The notes under the pieces were generated by a model that did no database searches, was not told the DNA's origin, and was given only the letters and a program-made list of their open reading frames with translations. From positions 1-25,886 of the IMG/VR virus record IMGVR_UViG_3300030012_000972: a stretch of 25,886 nt of DNA; one strand, written 5' to 3'. Position numbers and translations under genes: made by a program. Source of the stretch: a virus. Shown in pieces: positions 1 to 25,886 of this stretch (positions are counted from its first letter, which is position 1; the number at the start of each line of letters is the position of its first letter).

Positions 1-66
1 CTGTGTAAAATAGGGGTTGACACAAGTCATTGTTTTTGTTACACTATTTGTATACGTTGATAAATA
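1..66 (+). repeat. Repeat A copy 1, promoter-bearing direct repeat
   Basis: These 66 bases recur without a mismatch at 24505-24570. The repeat begins at the first base of the window and sequence identity stops sharply at base 67. It contains a sigma70-type promoter and ends in GATAAATA, which resembles the core of a T4-type late promoter. GTGTAA near the start and TTACAC at the -10 form an inverted pair around the promoter and could be an operator, though nothing else supports that. Confidence 0.95.
17..45 (+). promoter_or_regulatory. sigma70-type promoter of module 1
   Basis: TTGACA at 17-22 is a perfect -35 box. It is followed by a 17-base spacer and TACACT at 40-45 as the -10 box. Transcription would start near base 52 and read through a structured leader into the small gene at 166. 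The promoter lies inside repeat A, so an identical copy drives the gene at 24670. Confidence 0.8.
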
Positions 67-151
67 ACAGTGTAGTGATAAAATAATAGACTTGATCATC
101 TATTAGGCTTTTATCCTTTCCAGCCCGCTACTACACTGTTTTGGAAAGGAT
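66..151 (+). promoter_or_regulatory. Structured 5' leader, predicted H-type pseudoknot (module 1)
   Basis: Stem 1 pairs AACAGTGTAGT (66-76) with ACTACACTGTT (130-140), 11 bp. Stem 2 pairs ATCCTTTCC (113-121), inside the loop of stem 1, with GGAAAGGAT (143-151), downstream of stem 1, 9 bp. Crossing pairs of this kind define an H-type pseudoknot. A third hairpin, TAATAGA (84-90) with TCTATTA (99-105), lies in the first loop. The 3' arm of stem 2 holds the Shine-Dalgarno-like GGAAAGG, ahead of a four-codon ORF at 152-166 whose TAA overlaps the ATG of the main gene (TAATG). The module 2 leader has the same topology with different sequence. Translational control is an inference. Confidence 0.7.
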
Positions 152-165
152 ATGAAAGGCACATA

Positions 166-402
166 ATGATACAAACAAACAAACGCATTTTAGATCTAGC
201 TGTAAAATATTACGGCACAACAGATCTCACAAGGCTACAACCATACCAACTGGATAAGATAACTACTTGGGCTACACGTATGAACCCTGATCAAGGCAAA
301 AATCAACAACGCAAAGCACAGAATAAACTACGCAAAGGCAAATGGTATAAAAACAGCAATGACAAAACCAAGGCTATACTAGAAAACAAACACAGGCACT
401 AA
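166..402 (+). CDS. Small basic protein, module 1 first gene, function unknown
   Basis: This 78-residue protein is very basic and soluble. Its C-terminal half is rich in Lys, Arg, Asn and Gln, and no membrane segment or known domain can be seen. The composition would suit nucleic-acid binding, but no motif proves it. The start is set by GAAAGG at 154-159, six bases upstream of the ATG. It is the first gene behind repeat A and its pseudoknot leader. The gene at the same place in module 2 (24670) is unrelated in sequence although its start codon lies at exactly the same distance from repeat A. An early, promoter-proximal accessory gene is likely. Confidence 0.7.
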   Translation: MIQTNKRILDLAVKYYGTTDLTRLQPYQLDKITTWATRMNPDQGKNQQRKAQNKLRKGKWYKNSNDKTKAILENKHRH

Positions 403-739
403 CAAACAGCTCATAAGGCTTGTCCGCCAGATATATGGACCGTGGAAAAACTAGTTAGAGAGATCCTTGACTAGACACGAGAAGCAGTAATGCCAGTGAT
501 TATGCTGTTATCACACAACACAATGTTCTCAAGCAAGTGTAACAACTGAGGAACGAGGTTACACCTAGAGTCGCAACAGGTAGGGGAAAGTGCAGAGCCC
601 CAGAGAGCGTGTATAAACATAAAAACACCTGTTTCCAAGTCTTGACTGGTGATACTCACATAATGTCAAGTTAGATGGAACCTGTAGTTAGGTTCCGTCT
701 GACCAGATCAATCTACATAATATCTCAAGTATGTTTCTT
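403..739 (+). other. Non-coding structured region of module 1
   Basis: No convincing gene lies here on either strand, but inverted pairs are dense. CTAGT (451-455) pairs with ACTAG (470-474). TGTAAC near 538 pairs with GTTACA near 558. AACAG near 574 pairs with CTGTT near 630, enclosing GGGG/CCCC and GTGT/ACAC helices like a three-way junction. CTTGAC (641-646) pairs with GTCAAG (665-670). AGATGGAACCT (673-683) pairs with AGGTTCCGTCT (690-700), 11 bp with one wobble. A string of such helices between a promoter-driven gene and repeat B suggests a structured RNA. It matches no family I recognise. Confidence 0.45.
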
Positions 740-856
740 AAAACGGAGTGGACACAACACCATCTTGTGCTTGAGCGAGTGCAACGAGTGATAAGACAAG
801 TGGGTTGTATGCTGGTGGCGTAGCAACTGGCATTTAACATTGACACACACAACCAC
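740..856 (+). repeat. Repeat B copy 1
   Basis: About 117 bases match 25349-25465 with three substitutions that I can count (746, 753 and 851). The repeat ends in the -35 box and spacer of the promoter for the second gene of the module. The DNA upstream of the promoter is as conserved as the promoter itself and includes two spaced copies of CGAGTG. It must therefore do something else, either as an operator or activator region or as the end of a structured RNA. Confidence 0.93.
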
Positions 857-868
857 GTGTAGTATAAT
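840..868 (+). promoter_or_regulatory. Consensus sigma70 promoter for the gene at 897
   Basis: TTGACA (840-845), 17 bases, then TATAAT (863-868) is a perfect sigma70 consensus at optimal spacing. It is followed by AGGAGA at 885-890 and an ATG at 897. A promoter this strong suggests early, high-level expression by host RNA polymerase. Confidence 0.88.
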
Positions 869-896
869 ATAATAGTAAGAATACAGGAGAAATAAA

Positions 897-1400
897 ATGG
901 CAGAAATATCTAAACAATGTGAAAAAAGATTGTGGGAAATATATCGTTATGGTAGAAAACTTAAACTACATCAGTTTGGATCTTTTTTTACATTTTATGA
1001 GTATCATAGAAATATATATAGACAAAAAAAAGGTACATCTAAAAAACAAGGTAAAGATTTTACTTTGACATTACAGGATTGGTTTGAACTGTGGGATATA
1101 GATTTATTACATAATCAAAACTCAAAATATAAAAAACGTATGATTTGTCGTATTATTGAACCAGGTCCTTATAGTAGAGATAATGTTTATATAGGCGATG
1201 CTCAAACAAATGCAGATGATTGTAAACGAAATGGCAATCAAAAAACAAGAAAACGCAAGTGCTGGTTTGACGGAGTTGAATATGCAAGCACAACAGAAGC
1301 AATAAAGGCTAGTGGTTTAAGTGCTCACAAATTTTATAAACATCCTTCTTATAAAGCAGGCGAAATTTACATCAGCACTCAGACTACTTACAACACATAA
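897..1400 (+). CDS. HNH-homing-endonuclease-like protein with a NUMOD-like C-terminal domain
   Basis: This 167-residue protein has the skeleton of phage HNH-type homing proteins. A segment DFTLTLQDWFELW (about residues 54-66) is followed by CRIIEPGPYSRDNVYIG (about 82-98), which fits the usual LDRID...GYS..NVRWV region. The catalytic His residues are not apparent. Residues about 121-150 (FDGVEYASTTEAIKASGLS) resemble the NUMOD DNA-binding domain often attached to such nucleases. The protein at 22832-23161 shares the same core. The gene is visibly more AT-rich than the structural genes, which suggests separate acquisition. It may be a DNA-binding regulator derived from a homing endonuclease. 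AGGAGA seven bases upstream supports the start. Confidence 0.65.
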   Translation: MAEISKQCEKRLWEIYRYGRKLKLHQFGSFFTFYEYHRNIYRQKKGTSKKQGKDFTLTLQDWFELWDIDLLHNQNSKYKKRMICRIIEPGPYSRDNVYIGDAQTNADDCKRNGNQKTRKRKCWFDGVEYASTTEAIKASGLSAHKFYKHPSYKAGEIYISTQTTYNT

Positions 1401-8465: not shown

Positions 8466-10793
8466 TTAACACGCTACGCCCCAATCAGGTTTTTCTGCTG
8501 TAGTCCAACTAGTGAGTGTGTTTGTGTCAAAATCTGTAGGTTTGCTAGATATCAATTCAACACACCAACCTGAAATGTCTTGGTCAAATGCACCAGCACT
8601 GAAGAACATACGTCCCATTGCAGTAACTGATGCAGTGTTCCAACTACCAATGTCTTGATTAAATGCATCTGCATCTTCAAACATACTACCCATTGATGTT
8701 ACACTACCAGTGTTCCAACTACCAATGTTTTGATTAAACACTGTAGCATCGTTAAACATAAAATCCATATTTGTCACGCTACCAGTGTTCCATCCTGTTA
8801 TGTCACCATTGAAATTGCCTGCATTTTGAAACATTTCTCTCATAGTTGTTACATTGCTGACGTTCCAACTGTTACAAGTTTGATTAAAATTAGTTGCACT
8901 ATCAAACATACTGTGCATATCTGTAACACTGCTAACATCCCAACCATTTATATTTTGATTAAATGCACTAGCATTGTTAAAGAAATTAAATGTGCTTGTA
9001 AGATTGCTTACATCCCAACTTGAAATGTCTTGATTGAATGCATTAGCACCTTCAAACATACCTATACCACCTAACACAGTGCTGAGATCACACATACTGG
9101 TTACTGAACTAGTGTTCCAACTGCCAATGTCTTGATTAAATGCGGCACATAGATTAAACATTCCTGTCATATCTGTGACATATTGAGTATCCCAAGTGGT
9201 TACGCCACTTGCATTAAACAATGTGCCTCCTTGAAAACACTTGTTGAGATTGGTGTAATGGCTAGGCAAATTGCTTGGCACATATCCTGTACCATTCATT
9301 GCTAATTGCAATCTTGTAGGTACTGTACTATCACCCCAACGATCCAATGTTGTCAAACCAAATATTCTATGTTGTGTTAATCCTGCAGGAATACTTGCTG
9401 TTACATAGCCTGAGTAACCGCCTGTGTATGTCATACTTGCGGCGTTTGTGTATGTGATTGTGTCAATAGTACCATCACCTCTTACCCAATCAATATCTAT
9501 GCTGGTTACACCTGTGTCAAATGCACTTAGTATTGCTGGTGTTGTGCCATAGGTTGCAGTGTCAAATGTTGCAATCAAGTTACCTTGATGTTCAAAACCA
9601 AATGCACTTGTGGTTGTGGTCATATTCATAGTTGAATCTATTTGCATAATTTTCAACGGTGTCATTGTTGTACTTGTTGTTGATGCCATAGTAGAACCAG
9701 TTTGGAATATTCTCAATCCTGTTGCAGTTGTGCCTGCTACCATTGGTAAAGTGCCTGCGCCTTGTTTTAGTAAACCACCTACACAACTTGCGCCAAATGT
9801 AGAAGTTAGAGTTGTTGGATTTGGTCTTCTTGTAACAGTAGGTTCAGTATCTGCTTGTGTTGCTATTGCATTTTGTGTGCTAAAAAAACCTTTGATTACC
9901 GTTGGTGTTGCTGAAGTAGTTGTGGTCACAGTTTGATCACTGATCCAATCTCTGCTTTCAACAACTTGTACAGCAATGTCATTTGTGCTGGTAAGATTGT
10001 TTGTTAAATTAAAAAACAGTATACAGTCTGCATCACTCCTTGCAAAATATACATCTATGCTGTTCAGTGCGTCATTCACTGATGCTGTATCACCTATGAT
10101 TGTAACAACACCTGTTGTAGCATCAATTGAAAATTCTGCTGGACTTGCATCTGATGTAAATCCAGTTATTGTTCCTGCGGTAGCTGAAATAGTCAATGTC
10201 CAGTCAGGATCAAAACTGCCTGCACCTGCGTTTGTTATGTTTACAATGCTCATATTGGTTTTTACTTCATTGCTTACATAAGTCAAACTTGGTGGTGTAG
10301 TAAAATACTGCACAGGATTTACAGTTAAATCTACTGTCCATTGTACTTGATCTCTACTGCTGTCTTGGTTGTCTGAATAATAACTGATTGTGCCTGTAAA
10401 TTGTATGGTACCGTCAAATCCAAACTGAGGTTGTACTGTGGCTTGTCTTGCCAACAGCCAATCAGCTTGACTGCGTATGTCATCTACTACCCAAACATTG
10501 GTTGTGCCTACTCTAGCCGCTGTCATATGACTTGGAAAAGCGGGCCAACTCACTGATACTGGTGCGGTAAAATTGCTGAGATCAATAGTGTATTGCACTT
10601 CAGCAACATCATATTGTGTTACATCATTTATGTTGATACCCCAAGGAAAAACAAAGGTATTGTTTTCATTTATTGTCAATGTTTGATTGACAACTGCACC
10701 TCTGTCAAAAATAACCTGTGCTGTCCTTACATCCGTATAGGTAATTGGTGTAAGTGCATATGTGTTGAGATCTTGTAAACTGCTGATTGTCAT
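8466..10793 (-). CDS. BspA-type leucine-rich-repeat tail protein
   Basis: With the ATG that overlaps the previous stop (ATGA, 10790-10793) the product has 775 residues. The N-terminal half consists of Ig- or cadherin-like beta domains (for example [24 protein letters not shown]). Around residues 300-400 come short Thr-rich repeats like those of the fibre at 2511. The C-terminal quarter has about nine units of roughly 24 residues with the core [16 protein letters not shown], typical of BspA/DUF285 surface leucine-rich repeats. Such repeats mediate protein or glycan binding, so a receptor-binding role is likely. The gene is inserted between the two halves of the tail-tip protein. Confidence 0.8.
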
Positions 10794-11593
10794 GCTGATG
10801 TCACCTTTATATTTGCTTGATCTAATCCACAACCATAAACCGTGTTTGTCATATAATCAAACAACACATCACCTGGTTGTGTAAGACTGTTGCCTACATC
10901 AACTTTGATTGTTGGTACTTTGTTTAATTCTAAATCAGGATCCCAAGCAATTCTCACAATGCAAAATATCAAACCTGTCATAGCGTGGCTTGGTGTCCAA
11001 GTTTCAAACACATTCCTTGCATCAACCTCAGCACCTGATGTTTCAAAACCCACTGGCAGTATGTGATTTGCACTGCCATTTGCATAAAGATACACACCTA
11101 CTTTGTTTGCATAGGCAGTGTTTGTGTTGCCTTCTGTGTCTGTTAGACTGGCCGCAATCTGCCCATTGCTTTGAAAGTTTACTTTTTGGTTGTCCAAGTA
11201 AACATTGAAAAATTCATATGTGCTTACTGTGCCATCTATTTGTGTGCCTGTTGCCATAGCCAATGTGGTGCAAAATTGCAATTCATTGTTGCTACTGGTC
11301 AAACACACATCTGTGATTGTACCTGAAAATGTGGCTCTACCATACAACACAGGTATTTTGTATTCTGTGCTAGGATTAACCTGTATGCGTGTTGCTTCAA
11401 CAGTTTTCTTTTCCGTGACCTGTGTGACATCATCGCTTTGTTTTATGATGTTTGCAGTGGTTACACTAGTTGCTTGATAGTTTTTTATGCTCATAATGTC
11501 TTCAGTGTTTTTAACACCTAGTACATCTTGTATGAGATTAAAAATTTCTTTGAATTTTGCAACTGTGGTTTGTATGTTGTCAATGAAACTCAT
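10790..11593 (-). CDS. Tail-tip attachment (J-like) protein, N-terminal half
   Basis: The start at 11593 is chosen because GGAGGT precedes this ATG and the ATG overlaps the upstream stop (ATGA); the product has 267 residues. It begins [20 protein letters not shown]. It has a [19 protein letters not shown] segment (about 73-91) and ends [20 protein letters not shown] plus eight residues. That ending is the J-family signature (usually ..DilyDyLtn..yGaGl..) that lies in mid-protein in intact homologues, so this is a truncated N-terminal half. The continuation is the gene at 7184. Confidence 0.75.
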
Positions 11594-24504: not shown

Positions 24505-24570
24505 CTGTGTAAAATAGGGGTTGACACAAGTCATTGTTTTTGTTACACTATTTGTATACGTTGATAAATA
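24505..24570 (+). repeat. Repeat A copy 2
   Basis: All 66 bases match 1-66. The bases before it (AAAA) belong to the gap upstream of TerS, and after it (CTATT) the sequence diverges from copy 1 at once. Here GATAAATA continues as CTATT, so GATAAATACTATT is one mismatch from the T4 late consensus. Confidence 0.95.
24521..24549 (+). promoter_or_regulatory. sigma70-type promoter of module 2
   Basis: TTGACA (24521-24526), 17 bases, TACACT (24544-24549), identical to the promoter at 17-45. It drives the gene at 24670 through a pseudoknot leader. Confidence 0.8.
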
Positions 24571-24574
24571 CTAT

Positions 24575-24654
24575 TGAAGGGTTAAAATAGCTTTGGTTGC
24601 TCTTAGTTAGGTTAATCAGTTCCTGGACCACCCTTCAGATATCACAAGGAACTG
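24575..24654 (+). promoter_or_regulatory. Structured 5' leader, predicted H-type pseudoknot (module 2)
   Basis: Stem 1 pairs TGAAGGGT (24575-24582) with ACCCTTCA (24630-24637). Stem 2 pairs CAGTTCCT (24617-24624) with AGGAACTG (24647-24654). The order of arms is the same as in module 1, crossing as a pseudoknot. Stem 2 arms begin 112 and 142 bases after the start of repeat A in both modules, and the gene starts 165 bases after it in both. The sequences of the arms share nothing. The 3' arm again contains a Shine-Dalgarno-like AAGGA. A second ribosome site, AGGA at 24660, stays free. Confidence 0.7.
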
Positions 24655-24669
24655 TACACAGGAATTGAA

Positions 24670-25029
24670 ATGAAAAAATTAATACATAAACAAATCATAG
24701 AAAATCAAAGAATTGAACGCCAGAACCTTGAGCAAGAACAACTTGTTGGTTACTGGGCAAAAAAGTTTTCTCGTATCAGCAGAAAAGATCTTACAGAACA
24801 TCCTCAAATAGATGATGTAATTTTTCTGTTGAAAATTAGAGATCAATTAGGCAAATATTTCAACAATATAGAAACAGGTATGTGGGGTTTCTGTTGGAGT
24901 TACACATATCACAAAAAATGCAGGCTCAAAAAGAAACATATACGCAAATTAGAACGACTAACTACAGGCATACTTAACAGATTACAAAAACAGGCAACTC
25001 AAAGACAACGCATACAGGCACATAGATAG
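24670..25029 (+). CDS. Small basic protein, module 2 first gene, function unknown
   Basis: The 119-residue protein is helical and basic, with an N-terminal amphipathic helix (IIENQRIERQNLEQEQLVGYW), a middle VIFLLKIRDQLGKYF and a strongly basic C-terminus. It is unrelated in sequence to the 78-residue protein in the same slot of module 1, though both are basic and small. CAGGA six bases before the ATG supports the start. Nucleic-acid binding is plausible; no domain is recognised. Confidence 0.7.
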   Translation: MKKLIHKQIIENQRIERQNLEQEQLVGYWAKKFSRISRKDLTEHPQIDDVIFLLKIRDQLGKYFNNIETGMWGFCWSYTYHKKCRLKKKHIRKLERLTTGILNRLQKQATQRQRIQAHR

Positions 25030-25348
25030 AATCCTTGAAAAACCTTTCCAATTATTGGGGTAATAAAGGAAAGGACCCTAAAATAGCAGATGTAAGTATT
25101 CTTAGATAAACTGCTTAGGGTGTGCCCGCAGATTCCACAGTGTGGTTGAGAGTTACACATAGTCAAACTTCTCTCGTAATTTTTGTTTAAGGAACCGTTC
25201 CCGTAAGGGGCTATTACATTTAGAGATGTGTGTAGTTACGGTGGTGGTCAAATGTCTAAGGTAATTTTTTTTAGATTATCTTAGCATTTGCCCCCGCGTG
25301 GCTACAACATATCTCATCTCTAAATGTAATAGTCACTTGTGTCTTTCT
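25030..25348 (+). other. Non-coding structured region of module 2
   Basis: No convincing gene is present. Just after the stop of the small gene, CCTTTCC and GGAAAGG form a hairpin near 25044-25074 with a TTATT/AATAA helix inside. ACCCTA and TAGGGT, with AGCAG/CTGCT inside, follow to about 25122. GAGAG and CTCTC pair near 25150-25175. Then comes the 122-base nested hairpin at 25211-25332. The region occupies the same slot as 403-739, of similar length, but has no sequence similarity to it. Confidence 0.45.
25211..25332 (+). ncRNA. 122-nt nested inverted repeat, candidate structured RNA
   Basis: The outer arms CTATTACATTTAGAGATG (25211-25228) and CATCTCTAAATGTAATAG (25315-25332) are perfect over 18 bp. 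Inside, TGTAG (25231-25235) pairs with CTACA (25302-25306), CAAATG (25249-25254) with CATTTG (25285-25290), and CTAAGGTAAT (25256-25265) with ATTATCTTAG (25275-25284, one wobble) around a T-rich loop. The whole would be a long rod ending 16 bases before repeat B. It is not a normal terminator. I do not recognise a known RNA family. Confidence 0.55.
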
Positions 25349-25465
25349 AAAACGAAGTGGAAACAACACCATCTTGTGCTTGAGCGAGTGCAACGAGTGA
25401 TAAGACAAGTGGGTTGTATGCTGGTGGCGTAGCAACTGGCATTTAACATTGACACACACGACCAC
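25349..25465 (+). repeat. Repeat B copy 2
   Basis: It matches 740-856 with three substitutions seen over about 117 bases. Just upstream, copy 1 has one extra T and similarity fades. The repeat ends in the spacer of the promoter for the gene at 25507. The leader and ribosome site after it (TAGGAGAAATAAAA) are also nearly the same as in copy 1. Confidence 0.93.
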
Positions 25466-25477
25466 TTGCTGTATACT
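25449..25477 (+). promoter_or_regulatory. sigma70 promoter for the gene at 25507
   Basis: TTGACA (25449-25454), 17 bases, TATACT (25472-25477), followed by AGGAGA and the ATG at 25507. One base off the perfect -10 seen in copy 1. Confidence 0.85.
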
Positions 25478-25506
25478 GTATAAGTCATAACATAGGAGAA
25501 ATAAAA

Positions 25507-25812: not shown

Positions 25813-25886
25813 ATTTAACGTCATTTAAATGTAAAAAGGATCCACTGTTTTGCAAAATGGCTTAAGCAACACAGTGAATCCACCCA
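25813..25886. repeat. Repeat C copy 2, at the end of the window
   Basis: All 74 bases equal 1495-1568, and the window stops exactly where the identity stops in copy 1. The terminator hairpin (arms 25838-25853 and 25866-25881) points leftward and is followed on the minus strand by TTTTTAC. It would serve a leftward transcript arriving from outside the window. Confidence 0.93.
25833..25881 (-). terminator. Leftward terminator in repeat C copy 2
   Basis: It is identical to the terminator at 1515-1563: a 14-of-16 paired stem and a minus-strand U-run. No leftward gene feeding it is within the window, which implies one to the right. Confidence 0.65.

Follow-up and report, generated by a model that had tools for sequence, protein, structure and literature searches.

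Crossing stems of constant geometry in the leaders of two ORF1 genes of a virus record: putative 5′-terminal pseudoknots

The two ORF1 leaders of the virus record analyzed here, together with that of a related phage, contain crossing helices in statistical excess over shuffled sequence, and these are held to a constant geometry while the pairs of the second stem are exchanged. Judged from the sequences, the leader is most likely a 5′-terminal pseudoknot by which ribosome access to ORF1 is set and the 5′-end perhaps also protected. The record is complete (25,886 bases, the whole of which is referred to as the window) and possesses two units in the same orientation, one at each end, each of which runs from promoter repeat A through a leader of 99 nt and a small ORF1 to a noncoding stretch, and then to repeat B, ORF2, and repeat C (Table 1). 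The copies of repeat A (1–66 and 24505–24570) are identical at 66 of 66 bases, and, as stated in a preliminary description of this DNA, exactly 99 nt separate the end of repeat A from the start codon in each leader (ATG 166 and ATG 24670).

The internal perfect repeats of 66 and 74 bases (1–66, 1495–1568, 24505–24570, and 25813–25886) end where the contig ends, so a break of the record at repeats is probable; on a circular map the two units may be adjacent, or further units may lie outside the record. Repeat B (739–897 versus 25348–25506; 91% identity over 159 bases) contains hairpins in which GAGCGAGTGCAACGAGTGATAAGAC occurs, together with a strong sigma-70 promoter ahead of ORF2; in relatives, related hairpins (GAGY..CGAA) come after the RNA. 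ORF2 of unit 1 (897–1400) exhibits weak matches to HNH endonucleases (phrog_3118, E 6e-4; phrog_16521, E 3e-11). Elsewhere in the window, positions 8466–10832 encode a predicted virion protein with seven 75-base repeats, which by eye resembles BspA-like surface proteins.

Table 1. Positions of the leader elements, genes, noncoding RNAs, and repeats of the two units
Feature	Position	Strand	Remarks
Repeat A, copy 1	1..66	+	Promoter region: sigma-70-like TTGACA 17–22 / TACACT 40–45; late-type GATAAATA 59–66; start inferred at G72
Leader 1 stem 1, 5′ arm	72..77	+	GTAGTG; at inferred +1; upstream extension to 67 possible
Leader 1 hairpin within loop 1	84..105	+	Arms 84–90/99–105
Leader 1 stem 2, 5′ arm	112..122	+	TATCCTTTCCA; anti-Shine–Dalgarno-like
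Leader 1 stem 1, 3′ arm	126..131	+	CGCTAC; other register 129–139
Leader 1 stem 2, 3′ arm	142..152	+	TGGAAAGGATA; purine run
Probable ribosome site of ORF1a	154..159	+	GAAAGG; spaced from ATG 166; sequence, accessibility
ORF1a	166..402	+	78 aa, basic (18 K/R, 6 D/E), no family match
Type 1 noncoding RNA	403..728	+	Directly after ORF1a; nhmmer
Repeat B, copy 1	739..897	+	Hairpins and sigma-70 promoter (840–868), ahead of ORF2
Repeat A, copy 2	24505..24570	+	Promoters as in copy 1; GATAAATA 24563–24570; start inferred at G24576
Leader 2 stem 1, 5′ arm	24576..24582	+	GAAGGGT; at inferred +1
Leader 2 stem 2, 5′ arm	24617..24624	+	CAGTTCCT; alternative partner: ribosome site 24659–24668
Leader 2 stem 1, 3′ arm	24630..24636	+	ACCCTTC
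Leader 2 stem 2, 3′ arm	24647..24654	+	AGGAACTG; near-copy of ribosome site
Ribosome site region of ORF1b	24659..24668	+	CAGGAATTGA
ORF1b	24670..25029	+	119 aa, basic, helical model pLDDT 89.8
Type 2 noncoding RNA	25030..25340	+	Directly after ORF1b; nhmmer, strong fold

In leader 1, stem 2 consists of 11 Watson–Crick pairs (112–122 with 142–152) and crosses a stem 1 formed by 67–77 and 129–139. The second copy, previously placed at 24575–24654, is present, with stem 1 at 24575–24582/24630–24637 and stem 2 at 24617–24624/24647–24654. Counted from the start of repeat A, the arms of stem 2 were said to lie at 112 and 142 in both leaders; this is so for leader 1, and leader 2 comes within 1 nt of it (113 and 143). 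Crossing stems at least as long appeared in none of 1000 dinucleotide shuffles of either leader. Since crossings of 8+8 pairs arise by chance about once per 16 kb (1.9 Mb of related contigs), leader 2 on its own is suggestive only, while leader 1 is exceptional. The 67–77/129–139 pairing given earlier for stem 1 of leader 1 does exist; the register that fits the other leaders, however, is one in which 72–77 pairs with 126–131, which matches leader 2 and the third leader described below and yields a loop 3 of 10 nt rather than 1 nt. From reasoning on pseudoknot geometry, a loop 3 of 1 nt spanning an 11-bp helix is sterically doubtful.

Eighty terminase relatives were collected, and a second search, with an ORF1b alignment as the query, yielded 21 loci, among them L229, a record of 25,168 bases with 43% identity in the terminase and 39% in the ORF1 homologue. 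Its 98-nt leader carries the pseudoknot of leaders 1 and 2: TATAAATA at 2853 is followed by ATATT and then by GTAGGGTTAAAACA, stem 1 (GTAGGGT/ACCCTAC) crosses stem 2 (TGCCTTA/TAAGGCA), and the ATG is found at 2959. Type 2 RNA motifs (GTTACACATAGTCAAACTTC) occur 3′ of its ORF1b. Because this record was reached via the ORF1 protein and not via the RNA, it constitutes an independent test of the leader fold; having the same geometry with other letters in stem 2, it supports the earlier proposal of a conserved cis-acting RNA before the first gene. The set of pseudoknot leaders thereby comprises three leaders from two phages.

With the sixth base after [TG]ATAAATA taken as base 0, the geometry is given in the order leader 1, leader 2, and L229. 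Stem 1 starts at base 0 in all three (6, 7, and 7 pairs), loop 1 measures 34, 34, and 33 nt, stem 2 has 11, 8, and 7 pairs, loop 2 has 3, 5, and 4 nt, loop 3 is 10 nt in each case, and the ATG lies at 94, 94, and 93 from the inferred +1. All seven stem 2 pairs common to the three leaders vary and none is broken, three being a number of sequences that leaves R-scape significance out of reach. In the same order, these pairs are T-A/C-G/T-A, A-T/A-T/G-C, T-A/G-C/C-G, C-G/T-A/C-G, C-G/T-A/T-A, T-A/C-G/T-A, and T-A/C-G/A-T. Pairing has therefore been kept while sequence changed, as first claimed for leaders 1 and 2; covariation from two sequences alone is weak, and it is the third leader that makes it solid. 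In stem 1, conservation is higher (GNAGNG) and two of six pairs are exchanged; outside the stems the only notable conserved letters are TAAAAYA at the start of loop 1. As a MAFFT alignment of the three leaders loses the register of stem 1, the pairs were listed straight from the sequences.

Dinucleotide shuffles reproduced this geometry 0, 7, and 2 times per 40,000 (leader 1, leader 2, and L229), and it was found at 21 of 341,107 random positions; none of 538 late-type promoter sites shows the geometry besides the three leaders. These counts are descriptive, because the ranges of the geometry test were set after the three leaders had been seen, and the independent part is L229, found through its protein. 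A relaxed scan of 540 such sites, with a start-anchored stem 1, a crossing stem 2, and an ATG, revealed seven cases where 2.4 were expected. The extras (L040, L243, L009, and L010) differ from the leaders in spacing and resemble pairing that is due to chance or to a terminator.

The pseudoknot leader is rare, and not general for the ORF1 gene. The closest homologue of unit 2, L205, has an ORF1b that is 70% identical and the same RNA behind it; here, only 26 nt lie between the promoter element and the ATG, and the leader contains no pseudoknot. Most ORF1b homologues (e.g., L205, L206, L008, L230, and L235) have leaders of 21–30 nt of this kind, and most units of the terminase relatives have short leaders, often with a separate terminator-bearing small RNA upstream. 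These are homologues without the leader altogether, which is not strictly the case named beforehand as refuting, namely homologous leaders with stems that fail to form. Among 90 full records, the sole leader to match a leader-start pattern was that of L229, three other matches being within or before unrelated coding sequence. Pattern searches of IMG/VR with exact repeat B and with TGATAAATA..TAAAATA..TTAGG returned nothing or unrelated coding sequence, and in isolate phages neither RNA nor ORF1 proteins were found at the sensitivities used.

In L016, L039, L040, L042, L056, L064, L070, L011, L053, and others, the ORF1 unit is preceded by a separate small RNA that has a late-type promoter and a terminator of its own. 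It exhibits a 10-nt hairpin loop, UAYUGCCAUU or close to it, on closing stems of differing sequence, and this loop complements AAUGGCA, that is, the start codon followed by GCA. No such loop was found in leaders 1 and 2.

The element [TG]ATAAATA recurs in this phage group, and in 42 sites T occupies position +5 after GATAAATA in 98% and A or G position +6 in 98%. This pattern is in keeping with initiation on the first base of stem 1, and transcription probably begins 6 nt after [TG]ATAAATA, which would place stem 1 at +1 in all three leaders. T4-like phage late promoters have the sequence TATAAATA, which the late-type element resembles. The pattern [TG]ATAAATA-N4-T-purine, often with a sigma-70 promoter just upstream, is seen in L003–L082 and in this record; the phages that carry it are ~26 kb in size and their terminase is not T4-like. 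A promoter scan also revealed the sigma-70-like site in repeat A (Table 1). A start from it would give a longer transcript with the pseudoknot still inside, and stem 1 of leader 1 would then be extendable to 11 pairs. A second sigma-70-like site (TTGATA, 57–62; TAAAAT, 79–84), with its start behind stem 1, is a less favoured candidate, since it is not preserved in L229, which has TAAAAC.

The ribosome site was previously assigned to the 3′ arm of stem 2. The purine run there is real, but a second run lies nearer the ATG (154–158 in leader 1 and 24660–24663 in leader 2), and the ribosome site is probably this run 3′ of stem 2 rather than that of stem 2 itself. The distance from the end of stem 2 to the ATG is 13–18 nt in the three leaders. 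The 5′ arms of stem 2 are pyrimidine-rich (CCUUUCC, GUUCCU, and GCCUUA) and the 3′ arms purine-rich. The runs come in pairs: GAAAGG occurs twice in leader 1, AGGAACTG and AGGAATTG are found in leader 2, and in L229 TATAAGGCA is present exactly at both the decoy and the ribosome site. Because these runs are similar, the 5′ arm of stem 2 can pair with either, the decoy or the true ribosome site.

In leader 2, the alternative pairing of this arm with the ribosome site comprises 10 pairs (−15.1 kcal/mol), is matched by 0.35% of the shuffles that keep the Shine–Dalgarno sequence, and beats 23 of 23 other sites in the window. It is significant only in this leader; the corresponding value is 0.55 for leader 1, which is at chance level, and 0.10 for L229, where the pairing is weak. 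In the best nested folds of leaders 1 and 2, the ribosome site is covered. With the arms of the pseudoknot occupied, the accessibility of the site increases in leader 1 (0.38 to 0.68) and in leader 2 (0.17 to 0.89), and is unchanged in L229 (0.55 to 0.56).

From this we surmise that the acting form would be RNA, and that the leader would be a conserved cis-acting element, an H-type pseudoknot at the extreme 5′-end of the ORF1 transcript, in which an anti-Shine–Dalgarno-like arm within the loop of stem 1 would pair with a purine run ~15 nt before the start codon to give stem 2. This arm would be kept on the decoy run by the pseudoknot in leaders 1 and 2, and the true ribosome site would stay open. 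Translation of ORF1 would be open as long as the pseudoknot is held, and closed once the arm has slipped onto the ribosome site; this on/off assignment is putative, as is any ligand or protein involved. The 5′-terminal helix would also slow 5′-end-dependent decay. That ORF1 translation is set or timed by the leader, the pseudoknot being its open state, we regard as somewhat more probable than not. Against this reading, ORF1a stands behind leader 1 and ORF1b behind leader 2 and the leader of L229, and most ORF1 homologues do without the leader.

ORF1a and ORF1b are unrelated proteins, each small and basic, and neither has a match in Pfam. Judging by its comparison with L205, in which the differences at the three codon positions (33, 18, and 44) indicate purifying selection, ORF1b is a real protein gene. 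Its fold is predicted with confidence to be a helical bundle (pLDDT 89.8). The fold relatives in BFVD are four uncharacterised phage proteins, and VIA-align revealed nothing beyond helical-bundle noise. The model of ORF1a is of low confidence.

A large RNA comes immediately after each ORF1. That behind ORF1a, of type 1, is ~320–430 nt in length, and lies behind ORF1 or, in larger phages, behind a GIY-YIG-like gene. Relatives are found in >110 IMG/VR contigs (examples include L037, 3913–4234, L157, L140, L159, and others), and the 3′ signature GGTTCCGTCTGAC..TCTACA in at least 120 IMG/VR stretches; seven MAG contigs match the signature pattern. An alignment of 39 sequences reveals compensatory changes in 27 of 44 predicted pairs, and Rfam 15 contains no match. 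The type 2 RNA, consisting of a long hairpin and the motif GAGTTAYACATARTCAAACTTCTC, is also found behind ORF1b homologues (L205, 3310–3632; L008, 2662–3005; L236, 3363–3622; L046, 5511–5757; and others), and has no meaningful Rfam match.

Stem 1 stands exactly at the inferred +1 in three of three leaders, and stems of at least seven pairs at +1 are enriched at late-type promoters (58 seen versus 31.5 expected at 444 sites), including those of the separate small RNAs upstream in relatives. This would suit a pseudoknot that mainly protects the long transcript of ORF1 and the large RNA from 5′-end-dependent decay, with translation control incidental, an explanation which we consider unlikely: a plain hairpin would suffice for protection, with no need for stem 2, for its fixed position close to the ATG, or for the 10-nt loop 3, and relatives with the same RNA have no pseudoknot leader.

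Leader pseudoknots are a known type of operator and both ORF1 products are small and basic, so that an RNA-binding protein of the phage or the host might, in the manner of T4 gene 32, repress or activate ORF1 translation from the pseudoknot. We judge this quite improbable. ORF1a and ORF1b being unrelated, self-binding would require two proteins with one target, and the occurrence of unrelated products behind a shared leader makes simple self-control less likely; no candidate protein was identified, and, as the letters of stem 2 are not conserved, mainly the shape and the A-rich TAAAAYA would be left for recognition.

SAM-II, SAM-V, and preQ1-II are small H-type pseudoknots adjoining the ribosome site, and the leaders are similar to them in size and topology. 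Conserved TAAAAYA and stem 1 letters, along with a loop 3 fixed at 10 nt, would also be in keeping with a small-molecule riboswitch of this compact kind, which is nevertheless very unlikely. In contrast to those classes, leader 1, leader 2, and L229 have no match in Rfam 15, and none to its riboswitch models even with E up to 10 or 1, and stem 2 and loop 3 contain hardly any conserved letters from which a pocket could be built. Least credible of all is a feature at the DNA level (inverted repeats as protein sites) or a coincidence, for although 8+8 crossings do arise at the rate given above, one geometry recurs in three ORF1 leaders and in very few of their shuffles, and arms that are 28–63 nt apart and interleaved are unlike operator palindromes.

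Control of ribosome access to ORF1 by the pseudoknot is the reading we prefer, 5′-end protection and a protein operator being the chief alternatives. With geometry held to the nucleotide and most letters of stem 2 replaced across two paralogous copies and a second phage, the leaders provide a clean test case for selection on shape. They front an unusual unit, a small basic protein directly before a large structured RNA, one family of which is absent from Rfam, and to understand the leader would be to gain a handle on the timing of the large RNAs and their partner proteins. Tentatively, and as a possibility rather than an expectation, we suggest a novel class of phage cis-regulatory RNA: a 5′-terminal, shape-conserved pseudoknot, with an anti-Shine–Dalgarno arm choosing between decoy and true ribosome site, that governs units in which a small basic protein is combined with a large structured RNA not described before.

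The RNA behind ORF1 resembles GOLLD and ROOL in being a large structured phage RNA to which no function is assigned, and the conserved 3′ half of type 1 may be compared with GOLLD (PMC12286853). Identity with either was rejected for want of an Rfam covariance-model match, and the core of type 1 differs from them in its size and in its location behind ORF1 or a GIY-YIG-like gene, and not in a tRNA island. Type III toxin–antitoxin systems (ToxIN-like) likewise have a pseudoknot RNA directly ahead of a small gene on phage-borne DNA. This candidate was also dismissed: the leaders have neither tandem pseudoknot repeats nor a terminator-like site before ORF1, there is no ToxN/AbiQ/CptN-type match (Pfam, PADLOC), and the model of ORF1b is all helical.

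Translational control by a leader pseudoknot is well known from riboswitches and from ribosomal proteins and is very rare in phages, gene 32 of T4-like phages being the standard case (PMC3014915). According to a review, the leader of gene 32 in T4-like phages is possibly the sole viral pseudoknot in translational autoregulation; in T4, ~67 nt separate it from the start codon downstream, and this interval is unstructured and rich in A+U (PMC3014915). A gene 32-type operator was rejected here: neither ORF1a nor ORF1b has a Pfam match and the ORF1b model is all helical, with no single-strand-binding protein, and there is no A+U-rich tract, the gap between stem 2 and the ATG holding the ribosome site. 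The operators of T4, T2, and RB69 are nonetheless the nearest known case, alike in being H-type pseudoknots in a phage mRNA leader, in which letters drift while the shape is kept, and in being absent from some relatives (PMC3014915). By comparison with T4 gene 32, stem 2 of the leaders described here ends 13–18 nt before the ATG, stem 1 is placed at the inferred +1, and stem 2 itself contains a decoy copy of the ribosome site.
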